Positions 27,492 to 38,720 of a stretch of DNA of 59,582 nt are shown one piece after another (positions within the stretch are counted from its first letter, which is position 1; each line of letters begins with the position of its first letter). Source of the DNA: an uncultured Bacteroidota bacterium (GTDB taxonomy: Bacteria; Bacteroidota; Bacteroidia; Flavobacteriales; Flavobacteriaceae); contig CACERG010000003.1 of assembly GCA_902561795.1 (NCBI GenBank), positions 77,693 to 137,274 on the forward strand, in the 5' to 3' direction. A program made the position numbers and the translations under genes. The notes beneath the pieces are model-generated. The model had not been told where the DNA came from and did no database searches. It saw nothing but the letters and a program-made list of their open reading frames with translations.

Positions 27492-28919
27492 TTAGTTTTT
27501 TATTGAATCTAAATATTTTCTATTCATAAAAAAACCATCTTTTATAACCGCACTTATTTTCCTTGTGTTCTTAATATCAATCAAAGGATTCTGATTTAAA
27601 ATTATCAGGTCAGCAATATAATTTGGTTTTATCCTTCCCAAGGAATCCTGAAGATTGAAATATTTTGATGGATTTATTGTAGCCGCCTTCAAAGCCTCCA
27701 AGTTAGTTAGACCCGAATTGGTTAATTCTTCAATTTCTTGATGTAAACTTAAACCAGGCACTAAAAATCCAATTGGAGTATCTGTTCCTGCCATAAATGT
27801 AATTCCCTTTTTGTGCATATATTTCACCATACTGGATTGCCATTTAGTGAAATCCATTCTTTCCTTATCTTCATTATCTTCCAATTGACTGATAGTTTTT
27901 CTCCAATTTTCTCCAATATTTTTTGGAAGAAGATTTAAATAAGAATCATATTGCTTTGATTTATAACTTTTCGAGGCAAAGTTTTTATAAAGTTTCAGAG
28001 TGGGAATTTGCCATGTGTCATTTTTTGCCAGGATATCTACCACATTTTTAATTTTGGAAGAATCAAGATTATAAATAGACCTCATACGTTGTTTATTGTG
28101 CAACAAGGACCTTAGACTGGCGCCCCTTAAAGCAGATTTATTCTTTAAAATTGCTTTTCTTTCTTTTAAAAGATCATTGGTCATTTTGGTCATTGAAAGC
28201 TCAATATTCCTAAAATGTTCTATACTGTTTAAACCAGAGCTAGATGCAATTTCTACATTTATGCTAAGAGGTACATGACCCGTAAGTTTTAAATTATTTT
28301 TTTTAGCTAACTCTGTTAGAAGTTTGAATTGTGATGGACTTAACATTTCATATGCTTTGAGAAAATCAACTTTATTTTCAATTAGCATTTCCACATTTTT
28401 TCTTAATTCATTATCATCAACATTTTTTATTGAGAGAACGGGATGAGTATGATCACTGCCATCATAAACATTAAATTTCCCGTCCAATAAAGGTCCTGCA
28501 ATTTTTAAACGAGCTTTTGTTTTGGGATTTTCCAATGAATTTTGTTTATAGCTATTTACAAAATCAAAAGGCCCCCCAGTGTCCCTTAGACTTGTTATAC
28601 CGTGAAGTAAAAAAAGATCCATCATCGAATCGGCTAATTCTGTTTGATAAGCAAAATGCACATGTGCATCCCAAAGGCCTGGGATTAAAAATTTAGCCTC
28701 ACCATTAAATATTTTATTTTTCTTAGAAACTTTAATTTCATTTGAATTAAAAATTTCGGTTATTTTATTTTTAGTAATGACGAGGGTCTTGTTACTACTA
28801 AGACCATCAATGGGGTCAATTATGTTAATATTTTCAATAACATAGGAGTTTTCAAAAAAAATAGTTTCTTCTGAGCAAGAAAAAATAAATAATGAAAAAA
28901 AAAGGATAAATTTTTTCAT
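27492..28919 (-). CDS. Amidohydrolase-family lipoprotein
   Basis: This 475-residue protein has a lipoprotein signal (LFIFSC, Cys15) and an amidohydrolase (imidazolonepropionase/prolidase-like) core. The first metal motif is His86-x-His88 in WDAHVHF. A candidate bridging lysine is in FLKAYEM, metal histidines lie in TGHVPL and IEHF, and the last ligand Asp in AGTDTPIG. The C-terminal PNYIADLIIL segment returns to the small beta-sandwich. It is expected to hydrolyse a C-N bond in the periplasm or at the outer membrane. It lies 31 bp after the GMC oxidoreductase gene and is the last gene on the minus strand before tRNA-Gln, so it may belong to the PTS transcription unit. The substrate is unknown. 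Confidence 0.82.
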   Translation of the reverse strand: MKKFILFFSLFIFSCSEETIFFENSYVIENINIIDPIDGLSSNKTLVITKNKITEIFNSNEIKVSKKNKIFNGEAKFLIPGLWDAHVHFAYQTELADSMMDLFLLHGITSLRDTGGPFDFVNSYKQNSLENPKTKARLKIAGPLLDGKFNVYDGSDHTHPVLSIKNVDDNELRKNVEMLIENKVDFLKAYEMLSPSQFKLLTELAKKNNLKLTGHVPLSINVEIASSSGLNSIEHFRNIELSMTKMTNDLLKERKAILKNKSALRGASLRSLLHNKQRMRSIYNLDSSKIKNVVDILAKNDTWQIPTLKLYKNFASKSYKSKQYDSYLNLLPKNIGENWRKTISQLEDNEDKERMDFTKWQSSMVKYMHKKGITFMAGTDTPIGFLVPGLSLHQEIEELTNSGLTNLEALKAATINPSKYFNLQDSLGRIKPNYIADLIILNQNPLIDIKNTRKISAVIKDGFFMNRKYLDSIKN

Positions 28920-28950
28920 GAAAAAGACATCTTGTTTAATTTGTTATTAG

Positions 28951-30636
28951 TTAAATATTAAGTTTTTTAAGCTCTGAAACAGCATGATCTACTGCTCTTG
29001 CAGTAAAAGCCATGTATGTCAAAGACGGATTTTGGGTTCCTGAAGAAGTCATAAAAGCACCATCTGTGACAAACACATTTTTGACAGAATGTATCTGATT
29101 GTATTTATTCAATACAGATGTTTTAGGATCACGACCCATTCGTGCTGTTCCCATTTCATGGATTCCTTTTCCAATCGGCGCGTTTGAATCATTAATAGTC
29201 ACATCTTTGCAACCTGCGTTTTCAAGCATTTCAGCTGCCTGAATTTTCCAATCTTCCTTCATCTTTTTTTCATTCTCTTTGAATTCAGCATCAAAAACTA
29301 TTTTGGGTAAACCATAAGAATCAATTTTATTATAATCTAAAAACATACGATTTTCGTGATAAGGTAATACTTCTCCAAAGCCTCCCATCCCGATACTCCA
29401 GCCTCCAGGTTCTAAAATAGCATTTTTAAAATCAGAACCATAACTGAGTTCTTTAATTGCTTTTGACCAATCTCCTCTACTTGCACCTCCTTGATATCCA
29501 TAGCCCCTTATAAAATCTAAATTTTTTGATTTTCCACCAATATTTCTAAATCTTGGTATGTAGAATCCATTCGGTCTTCTGCCATAATAATAACGATCTT
29601 TATAACCTTCATAATTTCCTGATGCACCACTTCCTAATTGGTGGTCCATAATATTATGTCCTAATTCTCCAGAATCATCTCCAAGACCATTGGGGAATCT
29701 ATCTGATTTAGAATTCATTAAAATAGCAGTGGAAGCCATTGATGAGGCACATAAAAAAATAATTTTTGCCTTAAATTCAGAAATTTCTTTTGTAACTGTA
29801 TTAACTACTCTTACTCCTGTAGCTCTCTTTTTGTCTTTATTATAAATTACCTCTGACACAACTGAATTTGGGCGTAATGTTAGTTTCCCAGTTTTTTCTG
29901 CTACTGGAATGGTAGACGAGTTAGAGCTAAAATAAGCGCCGTAGGGACAACCTCTGTCACACCTATTTCTATATTGACAAGCTTTTCTTCCTGATCCATT
30001 TTTAGTTCCTTCAGTTATATGAGCAACTCTACCAATGGTCAAAACTCTATCGGTGTAATTTTTTGCTATAGATGATTGTAATTCTTTCTCTACACAATTC
30101 AGTTCCATAGGTGGCAAAAACTCACTGTCAGGGAGTTGAGGAAGGTTTAGAGCCTCACCACTTACTCCAATAAATTTTTCAACATAAGAGTACCATGGTG
30201 CAATCTCTTTATATCTTACTGGCCAATCAACGGCTATACCATCTCTCAAATTTGCTTCAAAATCATCATCACTCCATCGATATGTTTGTCGTCCCCAGAT
30301 TAGAGAACGACCACCTACCTGAGTGCCTCTGATCCAGTCAAAGGGTTTAATCTCATCGTAGTCATATTCGGAATCCTTATTGTAAAAATGTCTATTGCCC
30401 TCGTGAATCCCCCACCTTTTTTGTTTATTGTAGTTTTTTAATTCCTCTTGAGTAGTTCTTCCGCCGTGTTTTACATCCCATGGGTCAAGATTCATTGTAG
30501 GGTAATCTTCGATATGCTTAACCATTCGTCCTCTTTCTAGAACCAATGTTTTTAATCCCTTTTCACAAAGTTCTTTAGCCGCCCAACCACCACTTATTCC
30601 AGATCCAACAACTATGGCATCAAAGTTTTTATTCAT
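28951..30636 (-). CDS. GMC-family FAD oxidoreductase
   Basis: This 561-residue enzyme has the N-terminal FAD-binding signature VGSGISGGWAA (about 11-21) and ends with an NPSLTYMAFTARA segment typical of GMC enzymes related to gluconate 2-dehydrogenase large subunits. A cysteine-rich stretch, CQYRNRCDRGCPYG, also occurs in that branch. It oxidises an alcohol group, usually on a sugar or polyol. There is no signal peptide and no small subunit (gluconate 2-dehydrogenase subunit 3) or cytochrome beside it, so the electron acceptor is unclear. It starts 86 bp after the enzyme I stop, in the same direction. A link to the PTS substrate is possible but unproven. Confidence 0.85.
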   Translation of the reverse strand: MNKNFDAIVVGSGISGGWAAKELCEKGLKTLVLERGRMVKHIEDYPTMNLDPWDVKHGGRTTQEELKNYNKQKRWGIHEGNRHFYNKDSEYDYDEIKPFDWIRGTQVGGRSLIWGRQTYRWSDDDFEANLRDGIAVDWPVRYKEIAPWYSYVEKFIGVSGEALNLPQLPDSEFLPPMELNCVEKELQSSIAKNYTDRVLTIGRVAHITEGTKNGSGRKACQYRNRCDRGCPYGAYFSSNSSTIPVAEKTGKLTLRPNSVVSEVIYNKDKKRATGVRVVNTVTKEISEFKAKIIFLCASSMASTAILMNSKSDRFPNGLGDDSGELGHNIMDHQLGSGASGNYEGYKDRYYYGRRPNGFYIPRFRNIGGKSKNLDFIRGYGYQGGASRGDWSKAIKELSYGSDFKNAILEPGGWSIGMGGFGEVLPYHENRMFLDYNKIDSYGLPKIVFDAEFKENEKKMKEDWKIQAAEMLENAGCKDVTINDSNAPIGKGIHEMGTARMGRDPKTSVLNKYNQIHSVKNVFVTDGAFMTSSGTQNPSLTYMAFTARAVDHAVSELKKLNI

Positions 30637-30722: not shown

Positions 30723-32351
30723 TTATTTCAGTGATCTTATTTCTTCTTTTATTTTGGGGATTAACATTGGAGGCATACTCAAACTACTAATGCCTATATC
30801 AATAAATTCATTTAAGTAATTTATATTAGAAGCTAGTTCCCCACAAATGCTAATTTCTTTTTTCTTGGAAATTACCTCTAAAGCAAAATTCCGAATTAGT
30901 TTTAGGACACTTTGATTACCAGATTCAATATAATGTGAAACATTTTTGTTTGTGCGATCTGCAGCCATCAAAAATTGAGCAAGATCATTAGTTCCAAAAG
31001 AAAAGAAATCTGCTTTTGAAATAAAATCATTAGGGTTTAAGGCTACATTTGGAACTTCAACCATAATTCCAATAGGAGGTAATTTTTCAATAACCTCACC
31101 CTGTTGATTTAACTCTTTTTGTTCCTTATGAATTGCAGTTATAATTTTATCCAAGTCATTGGAATTTGTAATCATTGGGCAAAGAATTTTTATATTAAAA
31201 TCTTTAGAAAGTTTTAAAAAAGCTCTTATTTGTGGTTTTAAAAGAGTGTCATAATAAGAAAAACCTAAACGAAGGGCTCTTTGACCCAAAGCTGGATTTT
31301 CCTCATTTTGTAAAGGCAGGTAAGAAACCTTTTTATCACTTCCAAAATCAATAAGTCTTAAAGTGTGAGTTTTTTCAGGTAAGTTGTTTAGAATTTTAGA
31401 ATAAAGTTCAAGTTGTGATTTTTCGTCTGGCATTTTATAACTTTCAAGAAAGCAAAGTTCAGTTCTCAATAATCCGATCCCATCAGCGCCAAATCTTTTT
31501 GCTTGTACAGCATCATCTAGTGATCCAACATTTGCCATAATGTCAACTTTTTTACCAGAATTTGTAATTGCTTCATATTTTGACTTGATGAGTTGATTTT
31601 TATTTATAGATTTTTCCTTTAAAATCTCTTTCTCAAATTTTTGACTAATCTCCTTTTCAGGATTTATATGAATGCATTTATTTTTGCTATCTAGTATTAT
31701 TTTATCTCCGTTTCTGACAATATTAACTACATTTTTTACTCCCAACATATAGGGAATACCTAATGCTTTGGCAATAATTGATGAATGATCTGTAACTCCA
31801 CCTTCCGTTGTAATAATGCCTAATAAGTTTGTTTGATTTATTTCTGCAATTTGACTAGGGTCTATCTTTTCAGCAATAACTATTGAGGGATTGTTAACTT
31901 TAGAAGTAACTTTTTCATCACCTAGTAACGATTTTAAAACCATATCCGAAAGCATTTTTAGATCTTCGGCTCTTCTATTGAGATACTCATCATCAAGGCT
32001 TTCTAACTCAGAAATAAAATTTCGAGTTACTTGATAATACGAATATGCAGCGTTAAAATTTTGTTTTTTTATTAAGTCTCTAGTCTGATCCAAAACTTCT
32101 GGATCGTTAACAATGCTGCTAAATGCTGTGTAAATTTCAAGTTCTTTTTCCGAAAGGTTTACAGAAAGATTTACTTTTTGAGAATCTATTTTTTTTATTG
32201 TCTTATCTATAGCTTTTTTTAAGTTACTTATTTCATTCTCTGAATTAATGCCTGTTTGTTTTTTAATCTCAATAGGATCATCGGAGTATAATATCTGTGC
32301 CTCACCAATAGCTAATCCCCAACTTGCTACTATTCCTTGAAGTGTTTTGAT
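30723..32351 (-). CDS. ptsI: PTS enzyme I (PEP-protein phosphotransferase), probable ATC start
   Basis: Enzyme I takes phosphate from PEP and passes it to HPr. The C-terminal PEP-binding barrel is complete (GADGIGLLRTEL, LRLIDFGSDK, GTNDLAQFLMAADR, CGELASN). The standard-start reading frame begins at an internal TTG (32093), but homology extends upstream without a break to GIVASWGLAIGEA, the usual enzyme I N-terminus, right after the HPr stop. No ATG, GTG or TTG occurs there. ATC at 32349-32351 stands exactly where the initiator should be and makes a 542-residue protein with its phospho-histidine (TDHSS) at position 189, as in E. coli enzyme I. Alternatives are readthrough of the HPr TAG stop, giving an HPr-enzyme I fusion, or a base error in the assembly. 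It is the last PTS gene of the unit. Confidence 0.88.
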   Translation of the reverse strand: MKTLQGIVASWGLAIGEAQILYSDDPIEIKKQTGINSENEISNLKKAIDKTIKKIDSQKVNLSVNLSEKELEIYTAFSSIVNDPEVLDQTRDLIKKQNFNAAYSYYQVTRNFISELESLDDEYLNRRAEDLKMLSDMVLKSLLGDEKVTSKVNNPSIVIAEKIDPSQIAEINQTNLLGIITTEGGVTDHSSIIAKALGIPYMLGVKNVVNIVRNGDKIILDSKNKCIHINPEKEISQKFEKEILKEKSINKNQLIKSKYEAITNSGKKVDIMANVGSLDDAVQAKRFGADGIGLLRTELCFLESYKMPDEKSQLELYSKILNNLPEKTHTLRLIDFGSDKKVSYLPLQNEENPALGQRALRLGFSYYDTLLKPQIRAFLKLSKDFNIKILCPMITNSNDLDKIITAIHKEQKELNQQGEVIEKLPPIGIMVEVPNVALNPNDFISKADFFSFGTNDLAQFLMAADRTNKNVSHYIESGNQSVLKLIRNFALEVISKKKEISICGELASNINYLNEFIDIGISSLSMPPMLIPKIKEEIRSLK

Positions 32352-32354
32352 AGT

Positions 32355-32618
32355 CTACTCTTTGAAATTATTTTTAATGTATGATACTAAAGCTTCGTGT
32401 GCTTCTTTTTCGTCACTTCCTTCAGCTATAAGCATAATTTGGTCCCTAGATTTAACCCCAAGAGTCATTAATGATAATGTGCTCTTCGCACTTACTTTTT
32501 TACCATTAAATTCCACAAAAATATCAGAATTAAATGTAGAGGCTTTTTTCGCAAATAAAGAGGCTGTTCTTGCATGAAAACCAATTTCGTCCTCAATATT
32601 TATTGAAAAACTAATCAT
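32355..32618 (-). CDS. ptsH: PTS phosphocarrier HPr
   Basis: This 87-residue HPr relays phosphate from enzyme I to EIIA. The start is ATG at 32618, not the TTG one codon upstream: ATG puts the active-site histidine (GFHARTA) at residue 15 and the serine of AKSTLS at residue 46, the canonical HPr numbering. A Ser46-like residue is where HPr kinase acts in Firmicutes, but no hprK is in the window. The gene lies 4 bp after the EIIB gene. Enzyme I follows in the same frame after the TAG stop and one codon. Confidence 0.92.
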   Translation of the reverse strand: MISFSINIEDEIGFHARTASLFAKKASTFNSDIFVEFNGKKVSAKSTLSLMTLGVKSRDQIMLIAEGSDEKEAHEALVSYIKNNFKE

Positions 32619-32622
32619 CAAA

Positions 32623-32934
32623 CTATTTTTTAATTAACAATTCTGCTTTGTCCATAATAAGACTAGGTTTTCGCAAAGCCTCATTCACACTTACATCCAA
32701 AATGTTTTTCCCTTTAAAACGATCCTTACCTGAGATAGAAACCATTTTTGCAATTATAATAACATCCGCTTGTTCAATTTGTTCTTTTGAGATCTTCACT
32801 GGAATTTTATGCCCTCCTTGTTCTTCTACACATATTTCGTGACCTCTGATTTTGGCTTCTTTTTTTAAAGCTAAAGCTGCCATTTTACTGTGTGCTACTC
32901 CAGCTAGGCAAGCTGTAATTAACGCAATTTTCAT
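32623..32934 (-). CDS. PTS fructose-type EIIB
   Basis: This 103-residue single-domain EIIB of the fructose family has the phospho-cysteine Cys9 in TACLAGVAHSKMA, followed by the family's VEEQGG and ADVIIIAKMV strands and the RFKGK segment. It hands phosphate from EIIA to the incoming substrate in EIIC. In most fructose systems IIB is fused to IIC; here IIA, IIB and IIC are separate genes. It lies 10 bp after EIIC and 4 bp before HPr. Confidence 0.9.
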   Translation of the reverse strand: MKIALITACLAGVAHSKMAALALKKEAKIRGHEICVEEQGGHKIPVKISKEQIEQADVIIIAKMVSISGKDRFKGKNILDVSVNEALRKPSLIMDKAELLIKK

Positions 32935-32944
32935 AATTATTTAT

Positions 32945-34006
32945 TTAGGTTTCATTTAATTCATTTTCTGCCGCATCGAGCGCATCAATATCTCTATTAC
33001 TAATGCTTTTTAGAAAATTTGCTGTCAGTGCAGTAACTAGAGAACCAATTACTACACAAATAACAAAGATTAATGGCTTATCATAAAAAAACCATTGTGC
33101 AATTCCCAAGACAGGAGTACTTAACTCTAATAAAAAAATACCAGCGATAGTACCTCCAATCGTGCACCCCAAAACAGTAGCTATTGTTACACGTACAATG
33201 TCACCCACTGCTAGTGGGATTACAATTTCAGTAAACCCCCCAATTATTGAATATATCCAGGAACTCTTCGCATAATTACGCTCTACTTTTGTATAAAGTT
33301 TTGGTTTTAAAAATGTTGCTAAACACATTCCAAGAGGAGGTATGATAACAATACTTCCACAAATTCCTAATGGTACATATAAATCTAAATCCATAACTGC
33401 TGTTGCAAAGGTACTTTGAGTCTTACTAAATGGACCTCCGTAATCAATACCTCCCAAAAATCCCATAACTGCCCCCATAATTGCTGAGCCCTCTTCGCCT
33501 AAATTAGAAAGGAAAGAGGAAATAACTTCCATAAGCCAGGCAATTGGCGGACCAAGGAGATATACCATAAAGACTACTACTATAAGTGTACTAAAAACTG
33601 GAGCTATAAATCCCCAGGTGCTCTGAAGTATTTCTGGAAGTTCTAGTTTCATAAGCATGTAGGTAGCATAACCTACTAAAATCCCACCGAGTAGTGCTCC
33701 TAGATAACCTGTATCAATTTGTTGGGCTAAAACACCTACTATGAATCCAGGAGCAATACCTGGAGTATCACTAATACTGTATGCTGTGTAGGCAGCCATA
33801 ATAGGAACAAAATAAGTTAAGCCTATCGTGCCAACATCTTTAAATATTTTCCAAATAGAACCATCTTCGTAACTTCCGCCTCCCAATACAGCTAGACTTC
33901 CTACCATACCCCCTATAAGAAGAATTGGCAGCATATAGGAAACTCCAGTTCTAAAGTGAGTTCCAGTTTCTCTAAAAATATTTCCTGTTTCTTTCCAAAA
34001 ATCCAT
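32945..34006 (-). CDS. PTS fructose-type EIIC permease
   Basis: This 353-residue membrane permease has about nine to ten helices. Fructose-family EIIC blocks are easily seen: RTGVSYMLPILLIGG near the N-terminus, DTPGIAPGFIVG, GALLGGILVGY, LLGPPIAWLM and the GGIDYGGPFSKT loop that replaces the usual AFDMGGPVNK of fructose permeases. It moves the substrate inward while EIIB phosphorylates it. The altered loop and the unusual neighbours (dehydrogenase, epimerase, lyase, no 1-phosphofructokinase) suggest a substrate other than fructose. It is spaced 10 bp from each neighbouring gene. Confidence 0.9.
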   Translation of the reverse strand: MDFWKETGNIFRETGTHFRTGVSYMLPILLIGGMVGSLAVLGGGSYEDGSIWKIFKDVGTIGLTYFVPIMAAYTAYSISDTPGIAPGFIVGVLAQQIDTGYLGALLGGILVGYATYMLMKLELPEILQSTWGFIAPVFSTLIVVVFMVYLLGPPIAWLMEVISSFLSNLGEEGSAIMGAVMGFLGGIDYGGPFSKTQSTFATAVMDLDLYVPLGICGSIVIIPPLGMCLATFLKPKLYTKVERNYAKSSWIYSIIGGFTEIVIPLAVGDIVRVTIATVLGCTIGGTIAGIFLLELSTPVLGIAQWFFYDKPLIFVICVVIGSLVTALTANFLKSISNRDIDALDAAENELNET

Positions 34007-34016
34007 AGTATATAAT

Positions 34017-34454
34017 TTATTGAAATGTTTTTGAAATTTCTTCGACAGATTTTGCTTCTTCCCAAGACTTTCTCACTTTTTCCTCTAATGCTAAGCTAGC
34101 TATCTGAGACATCAAATCTATATGAAGATTATCTTCCTTTTTATTTGAATCTGGTATTGCAAGAATTAATATAAATTTAACTTCATCATCATTTTTATCC
34201 CATTCCAAACTAACGGTTCGGCAAAAACCGAAGCTTACTTTTTTAACCGCTTTTGAAATCGCATGAGGTATTGCAATATTATAACCACAATAAGTCGACA
34301 ATAATTCTTCACGTTTTAAAACAGCATCAAAATATTCTCTTTTGTCAGATAAACATCCTTTATCGTCTAATTTGTTTACAAGAAAATTTAAAGCGTGAGA
34401 TTTATTTTTTAATTCTGAGTTAAGCTCAATAAAAGCTGGAGAAAGCAGATTCAT
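34017..34454 (-). CDS. PTS fructose/mannitol-type EIIA
   Basis: This 145-residue EIIA has the active-site histidine His64 in IAIPHAISKAV, the normal motif of the fructose-mannitol EIIA family. Phosphate moves HPr-His15 to EIIA-His64 to EIIB-Cys9. It stands alone without the regulatory PRD domains or fused HPr seen in some relatives. It is spaced 10 bp from both neighbours. The residues FILILAIP and the C-terminal helix agree with the fold. PtsN-type nitrogen regulators share this fold, but the location between the epimerase and EIIC argues for transport. Confidence 0.9.
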   Translation of the reverse strand: MNLLSPAFIELNSELKNKSHALNFLVNKLDDKGCLSDKREYFDAVLKREELLSTYCGYNIAIPHAISKAVKKVSFGFCRTVSLEWDKNDDEVKFILILAIPDSNKKEDNLHIDLMSQIASLALEEKVRKSWEEAKSVEEISKTFQ

Positions 34455-34464
34455 TTTTTAAAAT

Positions 34465-35166
34465 TTAATGTTGGGCTTTTTCAATAGCATTTCTACATTT
34501 TATCATCGCCTTTTGAATTCCATCAGGATCTTTAAAAATGGCGGATGATAGAACTACTACATCTGGATTGCATGAAATAAGAGGATTTAAATTATCTGCC
34601 CTTATTCCACCATCGATAGCAATTTCACAATTTGGATTTTTTTCGTCAACTAGCTTTCTTGCTCTTTGTAAAAGATCCAAGCATGATTTTCTCCAACCCC
34701 AATTATCTTTACCATCGGTTTCATCTACCCCATGAACTACAATGTGTAATCTATCAATATCATAAATTGACTCTTCAACAAATGAGAGTGGGGTATAAAG
34801 ACCTACTGTTAGTCCGATCTTCATATTTCTTTCTCTGCACCAATTTATTATGTAAGCAAGGGGAGCCCCAATGAAATGTTCAGCAGGTATGATTAGCATA
34901 TTAGTTCCCACTTCAGCCAACTTGTCAATAAATAAAAGATCACAAGTTTTGGTATAAATATGACATTCTATGGGTAGTTTAGTTTGCTTTCGAATTCCAC
35001 TAATTATTTGATGCCCACCCATAAGTTGCATATTTTTTAAATCATGCATGTCGGCTGCATCTGAGTGAATGTAATCTGCTCCAGCCGCTGTGACTTGCTT
35101 TACTAAATCTGCAATATTTCCATAGTCGACATGTGCTAATCCAGCAGCTATTTTGATTTTTCTCAT
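34465..35166 (-). CDS. Divergent ribulose-phosphate 3-epimerase-family protein
   Basis: This 233-residue TIM barrel is related to pentulose-phosphate epimerases. The metal positions are kept: His34 and Asp36 (DYIHSDAADM), His69 (ECHIYTK) and Asp185 (AIDGGI). The first strand, however, is IAAGLAHVDYGN instead of the IAPSILSADF of true Rpe, and VDETDGKDNWGWRK replaces the usual VxPGFGGQxF phosphate-side loop. It is therefore likely to epimerise or isomerise a related ketose phosphate rather than ribulose 5-phosphate itself. Overlap of only 7-10 bp spacing with EIIA and the dehydrogenase ties it to the imported, phosphorylated substrate. Confidence 0.78.
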   Translation of the reverse strand: MRKIKIAAGLAHVDYGNIADLVKQVTAAGADYIHSDAADMHDLKNMQLMGGHQIISGIRKQTKLPIECHIYTKTCDLLFIDKLAEVGTNMLIIPAEHFIGAPLAYIINWCRERNMKIGLTVGLYTPLSFVEESIYDIDRLHIVVHGVDETDGKDNWGWRKSCLDLLQRARKLVDEKNPNCEIAIDGGIRADNLNPLISCNPDVVVLSSAIFKDPDGIQKAMIKCRNAIEKAQH

Positions 35167-35173
35167 TGATATT

Positions 35174-36331
35174 TTATTCTTCGATACTTTGACTCATTAT
35201 ACTTAATATTTTCTCACTATTTTTTGGATCTAACTTTTTCAATAAAGGATGAGAAAGAATTTCTACTTTTTCATTTGAAGTAATTGCAGCACGAGATTTT
35301 GATCTAATTAAATCAGTAGTTTTTAATAACCCAATTACTTCACTAGTTAGTGCCTTTGGAGTTTTTTCTATTCCTAAATACGAAGCAATATTTCTGAATT
35401 TTTCTGCAGCAATTTTTTCCTTGTATCCTAGGAATGCAGGGTAAACAATAGCTAGAGTTTCACCATGAGCTATTCTCTGACATATTCCACCTATTATTTC
35501 ACCTAGTGGATGAGGTAAATCTGCACCACCATTTGATAAGCATATACCAGCAGCTGTGTCCGCCCAAGCTAATTTTGTTCTAAATTCAATAGAGTTAGGT
35601 TTTTGAATTACTTTTGGTAAATATTCAAAAACTAGTCTAATTGTTTCAAGAGAAAGATATTCTGTTAAAGGAGATGTTCTTTGTCCTAGGTAGCTTTCAA
35701 AGGCGTGAGTAAAAGCATCAAAACCTGTTGCAGCTGTTACCCTTGAAGGAACAGAAAGCATCAATTTGGGATCTATTATTGCAACTTTAGGAAAGAGATC
35801 TCTATGAAAAAGTGTAATTTTTTCTCTGTTTTTAGTATCACTTACAACGGCTGCTTGAGTACACTGTGAGCCGGTGCCTGAGGTTGTCGAAACTGCAATA
35901 AATGGTAGACTTGAATTTTTTGAGGCAATATATTCAAATGGATGATTATAGTTTGAAAAAGCATTATTCCAATTGACTATCCCATTTGATTCATATAATA
36001 ATGCAATTAATTTTGCAGAATCCATCACTGATCCACCACCTACGCCTAAAACAAAGTCTACTTTATTTTCACTTGCAATTTTAACCCCCCTATTGATACC
36101 TTCTAAAGTTGGATTAGGGACAATCTCATCAAAAAAACTTACAGAAACACCTGTGGAATCAAGTAGAGTTTCAATTTGTTTGTAAATAGCCTTTAAACTT
36201 CCATCTTTTGGTCGAGATACTAATAAACATTTTTTACCATAAAGAGGTGCAATTTCCTTTAAATTTTTAATACTTCCACTACCAAAAATAAGTTTAGTGG
36301 GGGTGAAAAAATTAAATGATGAAGTATCCAT
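35174..36331 (-). CDS. Iron-type (group III) alcohol dehydrogenase
   Basis: This 385-residue enzyme has the N-terminal NAD(P)-binding GVGGGSVMDSAK motif (about 96-107) and TTSGTGSQ. The metal ligands lie in ATGFDAFTHAFE (Asp/His), DLPHPLGEIIGG and IAHGETLAIVYP (two His). Length and order match group III Fe-ADHs. In this operon it would oxidise or reduce an alcohol/ketone, most simply the phosphorylated product of the PTS, as polyol-phosphate dehydrogenases do; that is inference. It lies 7 bp before the epimerase and 10 bp after the lyase gene. Confidence 0.88.
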   Translation of the reverse strand: MDTSSFNFFTPTKLIFGSGSIKNLKEIAPLYGKKCLLVSRPKDGSLKAIYKQIETLLDSTGVSVSFFDEIVPNPTLEGINRGVKIASENKVDFVLGVGGGSVMDSAKLIALLYESNGIVNWNNAFSNYNHPFEYIASKNSSLPFIAVSTTSGTGSQCTQAAVVSDTKNREKITLFHRDLFPKVAIIDPKLMLSVPSRVTAATGFDAFTHAFESYLGQRTSPLTEYLSLETIRLVFEYLPKVIQKPNSIEFRTKLAWADTAAGICLSNGGADLPHPLGEIIGGICQRIAHGETLAIVYPAFLGYKEKIAAEKFRNIASYLGIEKTPKALTSEVIGLLKTTDLIRSKSRAAITSNEKVEILSHPLLKKLDPKNSEKILSIMSQSIEE

Positions 36332-36341
36332 GTTTCTTATT

Positions 36342-37733
36342 TTATGCTATCATCTCAAACTTTGCAGTAAAATGACGTAAACTAATAATAGGACCTTCAT
36401 AGGTAAGTTTTAATCCCTTCATTTTATCTCTCCTTTTAAAAACATCTTCAAGAGCATTAATTACAACATCCATATGTCTATTTGTGTAAACTCTTCTTGA
36501 AACTGTGAGACGTACTAGTTCTAAATCAGGGAAAATTATCTTTCCAGTTTCTTTATCTTTTTTTGAAAAAGCACAGGAACCTAGCTCAACACCCCTAACA
36601 CCAGCTGTCTTATACAATTCTATTACTAGAGCTTGACCAGGAAATTCTTTTTGAGGAATATGGGGATAAAATTTTTGTGCATCAATATATACCCCATGTC
36701 CACCCGTAGGAAGAATAATAGGGATTCCTCGTTTAAATAATTCTTCCCCAAGATATTGAACTTGTTCTATTCTATATTTAAGATATTCTTCATCAATTCC
36801 TTCTTGCAGTCCAATTGCTAGTGCTTCTAGATCTCTTCCACTCATACCTCCATAAGTAACAAAACCTTCGTTGATAATTGCCAATTGATTAATCATTGGA
36901 AATAATTCTTCGTGTCTTGTACAAATGAATCCACCTATGTTTACTAATCCATCTTTTTTAGAACTCATTACGCATCCATCTGCATAAGAGAATAATTCTT
37001 TGGCAATTTCTTTAACCGATTTATTTTCATACCCTTTTTCTCTTTTTTTTATGAAGTAACAATTTTCTGCAAATCTTGCAGCATCTATCATTAAAGGAAT
37101 GTTATTTGCTTTAGCTATTGATGAAACGCTCCTGATATTTTCCATCGAAACGGGTTGTCCTCCATTTCCATTTGATGTAACTGTAATTATAATGAGTGGA
37201 ATATTTTGACTTCCCTTTTCTGAAATAAATTTTTCAAGTTTTTCCAAATCCATATTTCCCTTAAATGGATAAGGATTTGAATTAGCCGTTCTGCCTTCTT
37301 CAATTATGAGATCTACAGGTATTGAACCTGCAATTTCTGAGTGACCTTTAAAACTGTCAAAATGTAAATTACCCAGTATATACCCTCCTTTGGAAGCGTA
37401 AAGTTGGGACATTATGAAGTCTGCAGCTCTACCTTGATGTGTAGGTTGAACGTATGGGAAACCCATTATGTCTTGGACTGAATCTCTGAGATGATAAAAA
37501 CTTGAACTTCCTGCATATGACTCGTCACCTGTCATTATCCCCCCCCATTGCTTACTACTCATCGCCGAAGTACCACTGTCTGTCAACATGTCTATAAATA
37601 CATTCTCTGCAGGTATTTTAAAAATATTGAAATCTGCTGCTTTAACTAGTTTCTCTCTTTCTTCTCTTGTGGTTTTTCTTATGGGCTCCACCATTTTTAT
37701 TCGAAAAGGTTCTGCGTCATCAAGAAAGTTCAT
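36342..37733 (-). CDS. Tryptophanase/tyrosine phenol-lyase family PLP lyase, tryptophanase-like at two diagnostic positions
   Basis: This 463-residue PLP enzyme has the schiff-base lysine in SSKKDGLVNIGGF (Lys260) and the cofactor-binding IDAARFAEN segment. Tyrosine phenol-lyase has MERG with Arg381, which holds the phenol; this protein has VELG (Leu384), like VEIG of tryptophanase. Near the C-terminus it has LRHFTAK (His454), as in tryptophanase, where phenol-lyase has Phe. The lysine region, on the other hand, is closer to phenol-lyase. The family breaks tryptophan or tyrosine to pyruvate, ammonia and indole or phenol. It is the first gene of the PTS unit, 10 bp before the dehydrogenase gene. 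Its role there is unexplained and another beta-substituted amino acid may be the substrate. Confidence 0.85.
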   Translation of the reverse strand: MNFLDDAEPFRIKMVEPIRKTTREEREKLVKAADFNIFKIPAENVFIDMLTDSGTSAMSSKQWGGIMTGDESYAGSSSFYHLRDSVQDIMGFPYVQPTHQGRAADFIMSQLYASKGGYILGNLHFDSFKGHSEIAGSIPVDLIIEEGRTANSNPYPFKGNMDLEKLEKFISEKGSQNIPLIIITVTSNGNGGQPVSMENIRSVSSIAKANNIPLMIDAARFAENCYFIKKREKGYENKSVKEIAKELFSYADGCVMSSKKDGLVNIGGFICTRHEELFPMINQLAIINEGFVTYGGMSGRDLEALAIGLQEGIDEEYLKYRIEQVQYLGEELFKRGIPIILPTGGHGVYIDAQKFYPHIPQKEFPGQALVIELYKTAGVRGVELGSCAFSKKDKETGKIIFPDLELVRLTVSRRVYTNRHMDVVINALEDVFKRRDKMKGLKLTYEGPIISLRHFTAKFEMIA

Positions 37734-37829: not shown

Positions 37830-38720
37830 ATGAAAAGACGTAATTTTTTAAATCAAATTGGACTTTTAGGTGGGATATCACTTGCAGGGCTTTCAATCGA
37901 AGCATGCAATTCATTTTCAAAATATAAAATGGGTCTTCAGCTTTTTAGTGTTCGTGATGCTATGGAAAAAGATCCAATTGAAACCCTTAAAAAATTAAAG
38001 TTAATGGGATATGAAGATTTTGAAACTTATGGTTTCGATCCAAATACTAATAAAATTTACGGTTTAAATGTTTCTGATTTCAGTCAAATTTTAAAGGATT
38101 TAGGTCTTTCAACCACTAGTGGTCATTTCGGATTTACTGATTATTTTAATTCTAATGAAGATAAACTTAAGTGGTTTGTTGATAGTTGCATAGAGGCATC
38201 TAAAAAACTTAAAGCATCCTATATAACCTGGCCATGGGTACATCCCGATCAGCGTAATTCAGAAAGTTTCAAAATTTTAGCAAACAAGCTCAATCAGATT
38301 GGAGAACAAGTAAATTCTGCCGGTTTAAAATTTGCGTATCATAATCATGGGTATGAATTCGAAGATTGGAACGGTACAACAGGTCATGAAATTTTAATTA
38401 GAGTAACAGATCCTGATTTTGTCAAACTCCAGATGGATATGTATTGGGTTGTACATTCAGGGAAAACTCCAAAAGAGCTGGTTGACCAACACCCAGGACG
38501 TTATACGATGTGGCATATAAAAGATATGGATAAAATTACAAGGGATTATAGTGAATTGGGTAATGGATCAATTGACTATGCTAAAATTCTTCCTGATTCT
38601 GAAAAAAGCGGATTAGAATATTATTACATAGAGCAAGGGGGCAATTTTAAATATAATTCAATGAAAAGTGCAGCAACATCAGCAAAATTCTTTAAGAAAA
38701 ATCTTCAAAACCTAATCTAA
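37830..38720 (+). CDS. Xylose-isomerase-like TIM barrel protein (sugar phosphate isomerase/epimerase family), exported
   Basis: This 296-residue protein has an N-terminal MKRRNFLNQIG twin-arginine-like signal and a lipobox-like SIEAC (Cys26), so it is probably a periplasmic or lipid-anchored protein. The rest is an AP_endonuc_2/xylose-isomerase-like barrel with metal-site residues in FAYHNHGYEF, KLQMDMYW, WHIKDMD and YYIEQGG. Bacteroidota have many such proteins acting on sugars, often beside GMC oxidoreductases. It is divergent from the PTS unit and separated by 96 bp, so shared regulation is possible. The substrate is unknown. Confidence 0.82.
   Translation: MKRRNFLNQIGLLGGISLAGLSIEACNSFSKYKMGLQLFSVRDAMEKDPIETLKKLKLMGYEDFETYGFDPNTNKIYGLNVSDFSQILKDLGLSTTSGHFGFTDYFNSNEDKLKWFVDSCIEASKKLKASYITWPWVHPDQRNSESFKILANKLNQIGEQVNSAGLKFAYHNHGYEFEDWNGTTGHEILIRVTDPDFVKLQMDMYWVVHSGKTPKELVDQHPGRYTMWHIKDMDKITRDYSELGNGSIDYAKILPDSEKSGLEYYYIEQGGNFKYNSMKSAATSAKFFKKNLQNLI

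Follow-up and report, generated by a model that had tools for sequence, protein, structure and literature searches.

What does a complete sugar phosphotransferase system (PTS) do in a flavobacterium, and why is it encoded together with a tryptophanase-like lyase? The question is raised by an operon in a 59,582-nucleotide stretch of DNA from an uncultured member of the Flavobacteriaceae (contig CACERG010000003.1, positions 77,693 to 137,274; the whole stretch is called the window), whose source assembly comprises 1.73 Mb and is 80.8% complete. Eight minus-strand genes at 30723-37733 encode, in this order, a tryptophanase-family lyase (LYA), an iron-type alcohol dehydrogenase (Fe-ADH), a protein related to ribulose-phosphate 3-epimerase (Rpe-like protein), the PTS components EIIA, EIIC and EIIB, HPr and Enzyme I (EI) (Table 1). 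An earlier note on this DNA had listed the same order with gaps of 10, 7, 10, 10, 10, 4 and 3 bp, and our re-derivation is identical. As that note had also stated, the PTS is self-contained, both HPr and EI being found by family searches, and the phosphate relay is intact (EI His189, HPr His15, EIIA His64 and EIIB Cys9 are all present). The operon HPr is the single HPr found in the window genome. Judging from the gene sequences, we consider the chances about even that the operon serves the catabolism of a sugar-amino-acid conjugate, and equally balanced that its substrate belongs to the class of phosphorylated sugars linked to a tryptophan-like amino acid.

The names of the families give little guidance: LYA, Fe-ADH and the Rpe-like protein each score under the cut-off of every equivalog family matched (Fe-ADH far under those of all 17 NCBIfam families matched), and thus no known function can be assigned to them by name. 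One pattern scan of a genome collection with the window's Rpe-like protein, which misses distant forms, yielded 72 loci. All eight genes are present in 22 of the 24 Bacteroidota loci bearing this PTS, and the search for the same gene order that the earlier note had proposed finds it kept in 21 of the 24, including L045, whose contig ends within EI. L063 has all eight genes with the Rpe-like gene shifted to the front, and the contig of L049 begins just before the Rpe-like gene. Such conservation across Bacteroidota argues that the operon is no chance string of open reading frames (ORFs).

By record name, the further 48 loci are mostly from Firmicutes; seven are from Vibrio, and one each comes from a spirochaete (L086), an unassigned bacterium (L080) and a cut Bacteroidetes contig (L054). 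Outside the Flavobacteriaceae, the Rpe-like protein is 58-77% identical to that of the window. Near its gene we find a glucose-family EIICB cluster (39 of 48 loci), a PepV/Sapep-type M20 dipeptidase (36/48) and an Fe-ADH (35/48); some peptidase, amidohydrolase or oligopeptide/peptide-transporter gene is present in 42/48. Less frequent neighbors are YitT (22/48), EIIA-glc (21/48), small transaldolase/FSA genes (17/48), a Cof-type phosphatase (15/48), DUF336 (10/48) and regulators of two clusters (23/48 and 5/48). Functions of these gene clusters were taken from one scanned member per cluster, the second regulator cluster was assigned by eye, and the Rpe-like ORF of L080 and L086 is masked by an overlapping ORF. 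Transketolase, transaldolase and RpiA surround the cluster in 7/7 Vibrio loci. A third, smaller arrangement contains oligopeptide ATP-binding cassette (ABC) transporters, M29 and M3 peptidases and two amidohydrolases, of which one resembles Xaa-Pro dipeptidase; L053 adds an APH-like kinase (Pfam APH), whose homologue in L138 is 43% identical and has no Pfam hit of its own. The constant parts across loci are thus the Rpe-like protein and usually Fe-ADH, with exchangeable uptake and phosphorylation modules, as one would expect if the pathway serves a phosphorylated sugar that comes attached to an amino acid or a peptide. The nearby peptidases point to a peptide-borne substrate, and the PTS or kinase suggests that the sugar is phosphorylated first. 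Dipeptidases or oligopeptide transporters beside the Rpe-like gene, in part together with the same lyase clade, likewise suggest a sugar-amino-acid or glycopeptide substrate.

A single ORF in L064 (L064:9806-11587) appears, as judged by eye from its N-terminus, to fuse a DUF336-like stretch to the M20 dipeptidase. Acidaminobacter sp. JC074 carries three Rpe-like clusters (L053, L078 and L094), one with a peptide ABC transporter and the APH-like kinase and two with a glucose-family PTS; transketolase halves lie in one of the latter two.

LYA scores over the subfamily model PRK13238 and under both TnaA equivalog cut-offs (593 versus 750 and 535 versus 825.8 bits). Its clade (34 rows, corresponding to 30 different genes, four of them fetched twice) is supported 100/99 as the sister group of canonical tryptophanase in a tree that left out Flavobacteriaceae tryptophanases at about 50% identity; sequences resembling tyrosine phenol-lyase lie outside. 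The protein has the pyridoxal phosphate (PLP) lysine, Lys260, and the tryptophan-type residues Asp126, Val382, Leu384 and His454. In Escherichia coli TnaA numbers, Asp137, Val394, Leu/Ile396 and His463 are found in 34/34 clade rows, and the same four positions are Thr, Met, Arg and Phe in tyrosine phenol-lyase; in tryptophanase, these residues presumably have a substrate-related role. Four further residues of LYA (Phe128, Cys387, Ala388 and Phe389) are clade-specific: Phe139, Cys399, Ala400 and Phe401 (TnaA numbers) occur in 34/34 clade rows and in 0/24 other family members examined. We rejected LYA as a housekeeping tryptophanase, since the canonical copies belong to another clade and are separate genes in some genomes.

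In 22 Bacteroidota loci and 5 from Firmicutes, the Rpe-like gene has a linked gene of the LYA clade. Three further Firmicutes genomes contain a clade gene: in the L090 genome it lies some 12 kb from the Rpe-like gene on one contig, and on other contigs it adjoins peptide ABC genes (L089 genome) or an AroP-like permease and a PAS_6 regulator (L083 genome); in L136, the clade gene adjoins a permease whose best NCBIfam match is AroP, under cut-off. The clade is present in at least 7 of 43 Rpe-like genomes and in 0/390 other genomes of one Firmicutes class (Fisher p 6e-8), an enrichment that compares selected genomes with a single class. This 43-genome survey covered 47 of the 48 loci (L067 left out) and gave 33 matches, two of which, from Vibrio, are unclassified. 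Among the genomes with the Bacteroidota operon, 19 of the 20 searched (of 24 loci; L037, L045, L048 and L049 left out) have a tryptophanase-family match, 17 a single one and two with a second copy, and the family search found none in the L039 genome. In the Flavobacteriaceae, the lyase at 70% identity or more is found in 3/299 genomes, all within the four that have the Rpe-like protein; in the fourth, the contig begins 148 bp before the Rpe-like gene. The lyase, which the earlier note regarded as out of place, recurs with the Rpe-like gene across phyla and is the best clue to the substrate.

The Rpe-like protein scores under the rpe equivalog cut-off (92.9 versus 212.6 bits), and its predicted fold (mean pLDDT 88, with residues 43-48 below 50 and the tryptophan-containing loop about 70) is nearest to Rpe (TM about 0.8). 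In an alignment of 77 Rpe-like and 26 canonical Rpe sequences, His34, Asp36, His69 and Asp185 of the Rpe site are kept; we take these to be the metal and acid-base residues. The substrate-facing motifs differ from those of canonical Rpe, with AAGLAH for PSxL(A/S)A, HxDAADM for HxDVMDG and ExHxY for DVHLM, and the NPGFGGQ loop is replaced by a longer loop with Trp156 and Trp158, which are invariant in 25 sequences. These features suggest that the protein performs enediolate chemistry and that its substrate is larger, probably bearing an aromatic group. Since a second match in the window genome scores like ordinary Rpe, we rejected a housekeeping role for the operon protein.

The note's remark that a PTS is uncommon in Flavobacteriaceae holds, as HPr is present in 4/299 genomes. 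The same four encode the Rpe-like protein with at least 77% identity (Fisher p 3e-9), and in the sampled Flavobacteriaceae the PTS carrier protein therefore occurs only with this operon. In a wider sample of the phylum HPr is common (283/395 genomes), and EI lies within a 3-kb stretch at 27 of the best 30 phylum HPr loci, only 28-33% identical. According to a passage in a 2008 paper (PMC2405797), Bacteroidetes have no PTS; in view of the 283 genomes, this statement is too broad for the phylum as grouped here. Maribacter halichondriae, which was isolated from a sponge, has the operon (L043), and LYA is its sole tryptophanase-family match. Passages of the paper on this strain (PMC10942906) count PTS genes and tnaA as unique to it and do not connect the two with each other. 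In M. halichondriae, the HxlA-family model matches the Rpe-like gene weakly, and its best match lies 2.3 Mb from the operon, under cut-off; we rejected the Rpe-like gene as a hexulose-phosphate synthase of the ribulose monophosphate type, and the hxlA reported for this strain is probably not the Rpe-like gene.

Were the operon to serve a sugar-amino-acid conjugate, the PTS (EI, HPr, EIIA, EIIB and EIIC) would import the conjugate and phosphorylate its sugar, probably at C6, and Fe-ADH would oxidize one hydroxyl of the resulting sugar phosphate, giving a ketone. With this ketone as the basis for enediolate chemistry, the Rpe-like enzyme could then split the sugar from the amino-acid part or, alternatively, rearrange it to a pentulose or hexulose phosphate feeding into the pentose phosphate pathway. 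LYA would take pyruvate and ammonia off the tryptophan-like part, either ahead of sugar cleavage or following it. In favor of this scheme we also count the pentose-phosphate genes around the Vibrio clusters, the permease with AroP as best match beside the clade gene of L136, and the matches of EIIA, EIIB and EIIC to MngA, the PTS for 2-O-alpha-mannosyl-glycerate. Gene content, linkage, residues and recurrence are read from sequence; from these we infer the substrate, the sequence of reactions and that a carbon-carbon bond is cleaved. The operon likely encodes a new and transferable route for breaking down a tryptophan-type glycoconjugate.

As the likeliest single substrate we tentatively propose C-mannosyl-tryptophan. 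Animals excrete this compound, which in humans is found in urine and serves as a marker of kidney function, and the parent modification sits on thrombospondin repeats and mucins. It fits the operon because it is a tryptophan conjugate and a mannoside, has no hydrolysable bond and is freed by peptidases, and because it occurs in sponges and ascidians and reportedly serves bacteria as a carbon source. Its presence in ascidians and marine sponges is mentioned in a passage of PMC8433626, and its use as carbon source by a bacterial mixture is reported as Hossain 2018 in passages of PMC13066745 and PMC8433626; a 2021 review describes its degradation as not clarified. The operon of the sponge isolate M. 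halichondriae (L043) also counts in favor of this substrate; the case is circumstantial. It is conceivable, though rather doubtful, that the operon is the missing bacterial C-mannosyl-tryptophan route, with uptake as the 6-phosphate, 3-oxidation by Fe-ADH, carbon-carbon cleavage by an Rpe-like enzyme turned lyase, a LYA with a reshaped pocket, and spread across phyla. Cleavage would then be either retro-aldol-like, giving ribulose 5-phosphate, or an elimination giving the free sugar phosphate, and the spread, with interchangeable uptake modules, would have brought the PTS into Flavobacteriaceae.

Several points weigh against the conjugate reading and this substrate. The one published enrichment that degrades C-mannosyl-tryptophan (Hossain 2018) is reportedly ascribed to Sphingomonadaceae, which are not among the record names of the 72 loci. 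Protonation of indole C2 to cut the C-mannosyl bond is chemically hard, and we know of no Rpe-family enzyme that cuts this bond. The Bacteroidota operons lack a peptidase of their own, the amidohydrolase being nearby only in the closest relatives of the window, and L039 keeps the PTS and the Rpe-like gene while lyase and ADH were not found in the 9 kb covered upstream. A tryptophanase-family match at E 1e-60 is absent from 25 of the 43 Rpe-like genomes, which makes the lyase step optional and suggests that most carriers do not break down the amino acid or have a different amino-acid conjugate as substrate. Between phyla, Fe-ADH sequences share only about 40% identity and may not be strictly orthologous, and the tryptophan-type residues of LYA may be inherited, which would be no proof of an indole substrate.

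Other conjugates might give a similar gene set. LYA itself might eliminate the sugar from another glycosyl amino acid (O-, N- or S-linked), such as N-mannosyl-tryptophan or one with the sugar on the beta carbon of serine or cysteine. Enzymes of the tryptophanase family do eliminate O- and S-linked groups. N-mannosyl-tryptophan has been reported from fruits, food and an insect protein (in a passage of PMC8433626). None of the three glycosidase families tested (GH38, GH4 and GH1) recurs in the 72 loci, other families not having been searched: the E. coli MngB (GH38, part) and ChbF (GH4) queries gave no match, and the BglB (GH1) query found two genes, each beside its own bgl-type PTS. The lack of a recurring glycosidase would be expected if the bond between sugar and amino acid is no ordinary glycoside; it speaks for the main reading and suits this alternative as well. 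A sugar-eliminating LYA should be essential, however, yet the family has no match in 25 of 43 genomes, and the tryptophan-type residues of LYA are fully kept, so we consider this alternative unlikely.

A ketosamine as substrate would account for the peptidases and peptide transporters. The PTS would import a fructosyl- or ribulosyl-amino acid, the Rpe-like enzyme would enolize the ketose phosphate at C2-C3 and expel the amine, and Fe-ADH would reduce the resulting dicarbonyl. Glycated peptides are widespread, and the Rpe-like protein has a ketose-phosphate-type fold. However, E. coli FrlB and FrlC find no match in the 72 loci and FrlD finds one gene (FrlB at E 1e-6, where divergent deglycases could escape), and a tryptophan-type lyase clade would be left without a reason. 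Such an Amadori route appears improbable to us. The NagB query also gave no match in the 72 loci, and the NagA query matched two genes.

The route that the earlier note had favored, a plain PTS in which a polyol or rare sugar is phosphorylated, oxidized by Fe-ADH and epimerized by the Rpe-like protein, is not supported; the lyase would be a passenger in it. The EII genes do belong to the fructose family (EIIC is over the fructose-subfamily cut-off; EIIA and EIIB are just under it, at 93.2 versus 103.5 and 72 versus 76.85 bits, with their Pfam domains over cut-off and the active-site His and Cys present), an Fe-ADH adjoining an epimerase-family gene fits polyol-phosphate oxidation, and pentose-phosphate genes are nearby in Vibrio. 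Against these stand the lyase clade, which recurs with the Rpe-like gene in separate Bacteroidota and Firmicutes gene orders, the replaced substrate motifs of Rpe, and the Rpe-like gene adjoining dipeptidases or oligopeptide transporters in other phyla, where 42 of the 48 loci have dipeptidases, amidohydrolases or peptide transporters; we thus hold this route to be unlikely as well. A canonical fructose PTS, which the note had already doubted, is disfavored, as no 1-phosphofructokinase (FruK; TIGR03168) match over cut-off exists in 4/4 genomes, the window genome (80.8% complete) and three relatives (best match 96.9 versus a cut-off of 216.4 bits).

The 3-bp gap between HPr and EI raises a separate point. 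In the window EI, no ATG, GTG or TTG precedes the conserved N-terminal motif, and therefore the gap and the numbering of His189 require a start at the ATC at 32351 (site 32349-32357, minus strand). ATC or ATT is found at the expected EI start in 16 of the 25 loci, namely the window and 15 of its 24 relatives (L032-L038, L040, L042-L044, L046, L050, L092 and L102), none of which has an ATG, GTG or TTG upstream of the conserved N-terminal LxGI motif; in the remaining 9/25 loci, EI starts with ATG or TTG. As the window and L032-L035 are near-identical, the 16 loci amount to about seven groups. The pattern goes beyond an assembly slip, as it is present in two isolate records (L043 and L050). EI thus seems to begin at ATC or ATT in these 16 loci, a conserved rare start directly behind HPr. 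Read-through to an HPr-EI fusion was rejected as a general reading because the relative frames of the two genes vary among relatives.

Table 1. Genes of the operon, with their positions in the window and the evidence for each assignment
Feature	Coordinates	Strand	Evidence
LYA, tryptophanase-family PLP lyase	36342..37733	-	NCBIfam tryptophanase subfamily, 670 bits; alignment; tree
Fe-ADH, iron-type alcohol dehydrogenase	35174..36331	-	Pfam Fe-ADH, 161 bits, and C-terminal domain
Rpe-like TIM-barrel protein	34465..35166	-	Pfam Ribul_P_3_epim, 89 bits; alignment; predicted fold
PTS EIIA, fructose family, His64	34017..34454	-	Pfam PTS_EIIA_2, 109 bits
PTS EIIC, fructose family	32945..34006	-	NCBIfam PTS_IIC_fructo, 190 bits, over cut-off
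PTS EIIB, Cys9	32623..32934	-	Family searches; residue check
HPr, His15, ATG start at 32618	32355..32618	-	Family searches; residue check
Enzyme I, His189, apparent start ATC	30723..32351	-	NCBIfam PTS_I_fam over cut-off on 30723-32093; start-codon comparison

A GMC oxidoreductase, a Xaa-Pro-dipeptidase-like amidohydrolase and a xylose-isomerase-like TIM-barrel protein are encoded around the operon, at 27492-30636 (minus strand) and 37830-38720 (plus strand). These genes adjoin it in the closest relatives only, and we dropped the GMC oxidoreductase and the TIM-barrel lipoprotein as operon members because their membership is unproven and they cluster only with the window's closest relatives. 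A terminator scan gave 5 sites versus 3.6 expected, and the sole Rfam match in 27-40 kb of the window is a tRNA.

The earlier note had suspected a system not yet described. In agreement with this, the gene set as one system was not found among the matches listed from the open-licence literature of PubMed Central (PMC), which leaves subscription journals mostly uncovered, and the same matches contain no gene set for C-mannosyl-tryptophan catabolism. A gene set that predicts a route makes the breakdown of C-mannosyl-tryptophan testable and names candidate carriers in several phyla. If true, it would extend the Rpe fold to a new activity and give a reason why a few Flavobacteriaceae possess a PTS.

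Several known systems come close to the operon. The E. coli system for 2-O-alpha-mannosyl-D-glycerate, MngA/MngB, likewise uses a fructose-family PTS for a mannoside, and the operon EIIA, EIIB and EIIC all match MngA (33-36% identity to EIIC among the matches listed). MngB, however, is an alpha-mannosidase with no homologue found in the 72 loci, and the operon adds its own HPr and EI, the lyase, Fe-ADH and the Rpe-like protein. LYA shares family, PLP lysine and the Asp137/His463-type residues with TnaA and tyrosine phenol-lyase, but forms a separate clade with Phe139/Cys399/Ala400/Phe401 and is linked to sugar uptake. The Rpe-like protein has the fold and four conserved residues in common with ribulose-phosphate 3-epimerase and D-allulose-6-phosphate 3-epimerase, whereas it is about 20-30% identical to them, scores under both equivalog cut-offs and has the NPGFGGQ loop replaced. 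The fructoselysine (frl) pathway resembles the proposed route in its sugar-amino-acid substrate, its phosphorylation and its epimerase-like step, and differs in that no FrlB-type deglycase homologue was found in the 72 loci. Finally, deglycosylation of C-glycosides through 3-keto intermediates (DgpABC, CarABC) pairs a dehydrogenase with a TIM-barrel enzyme and needs no hydrolase; the operon would employ Fe-ADH and the Rpe-like protein, which we take to be of other families, on a sugar that is phosphorylated first.

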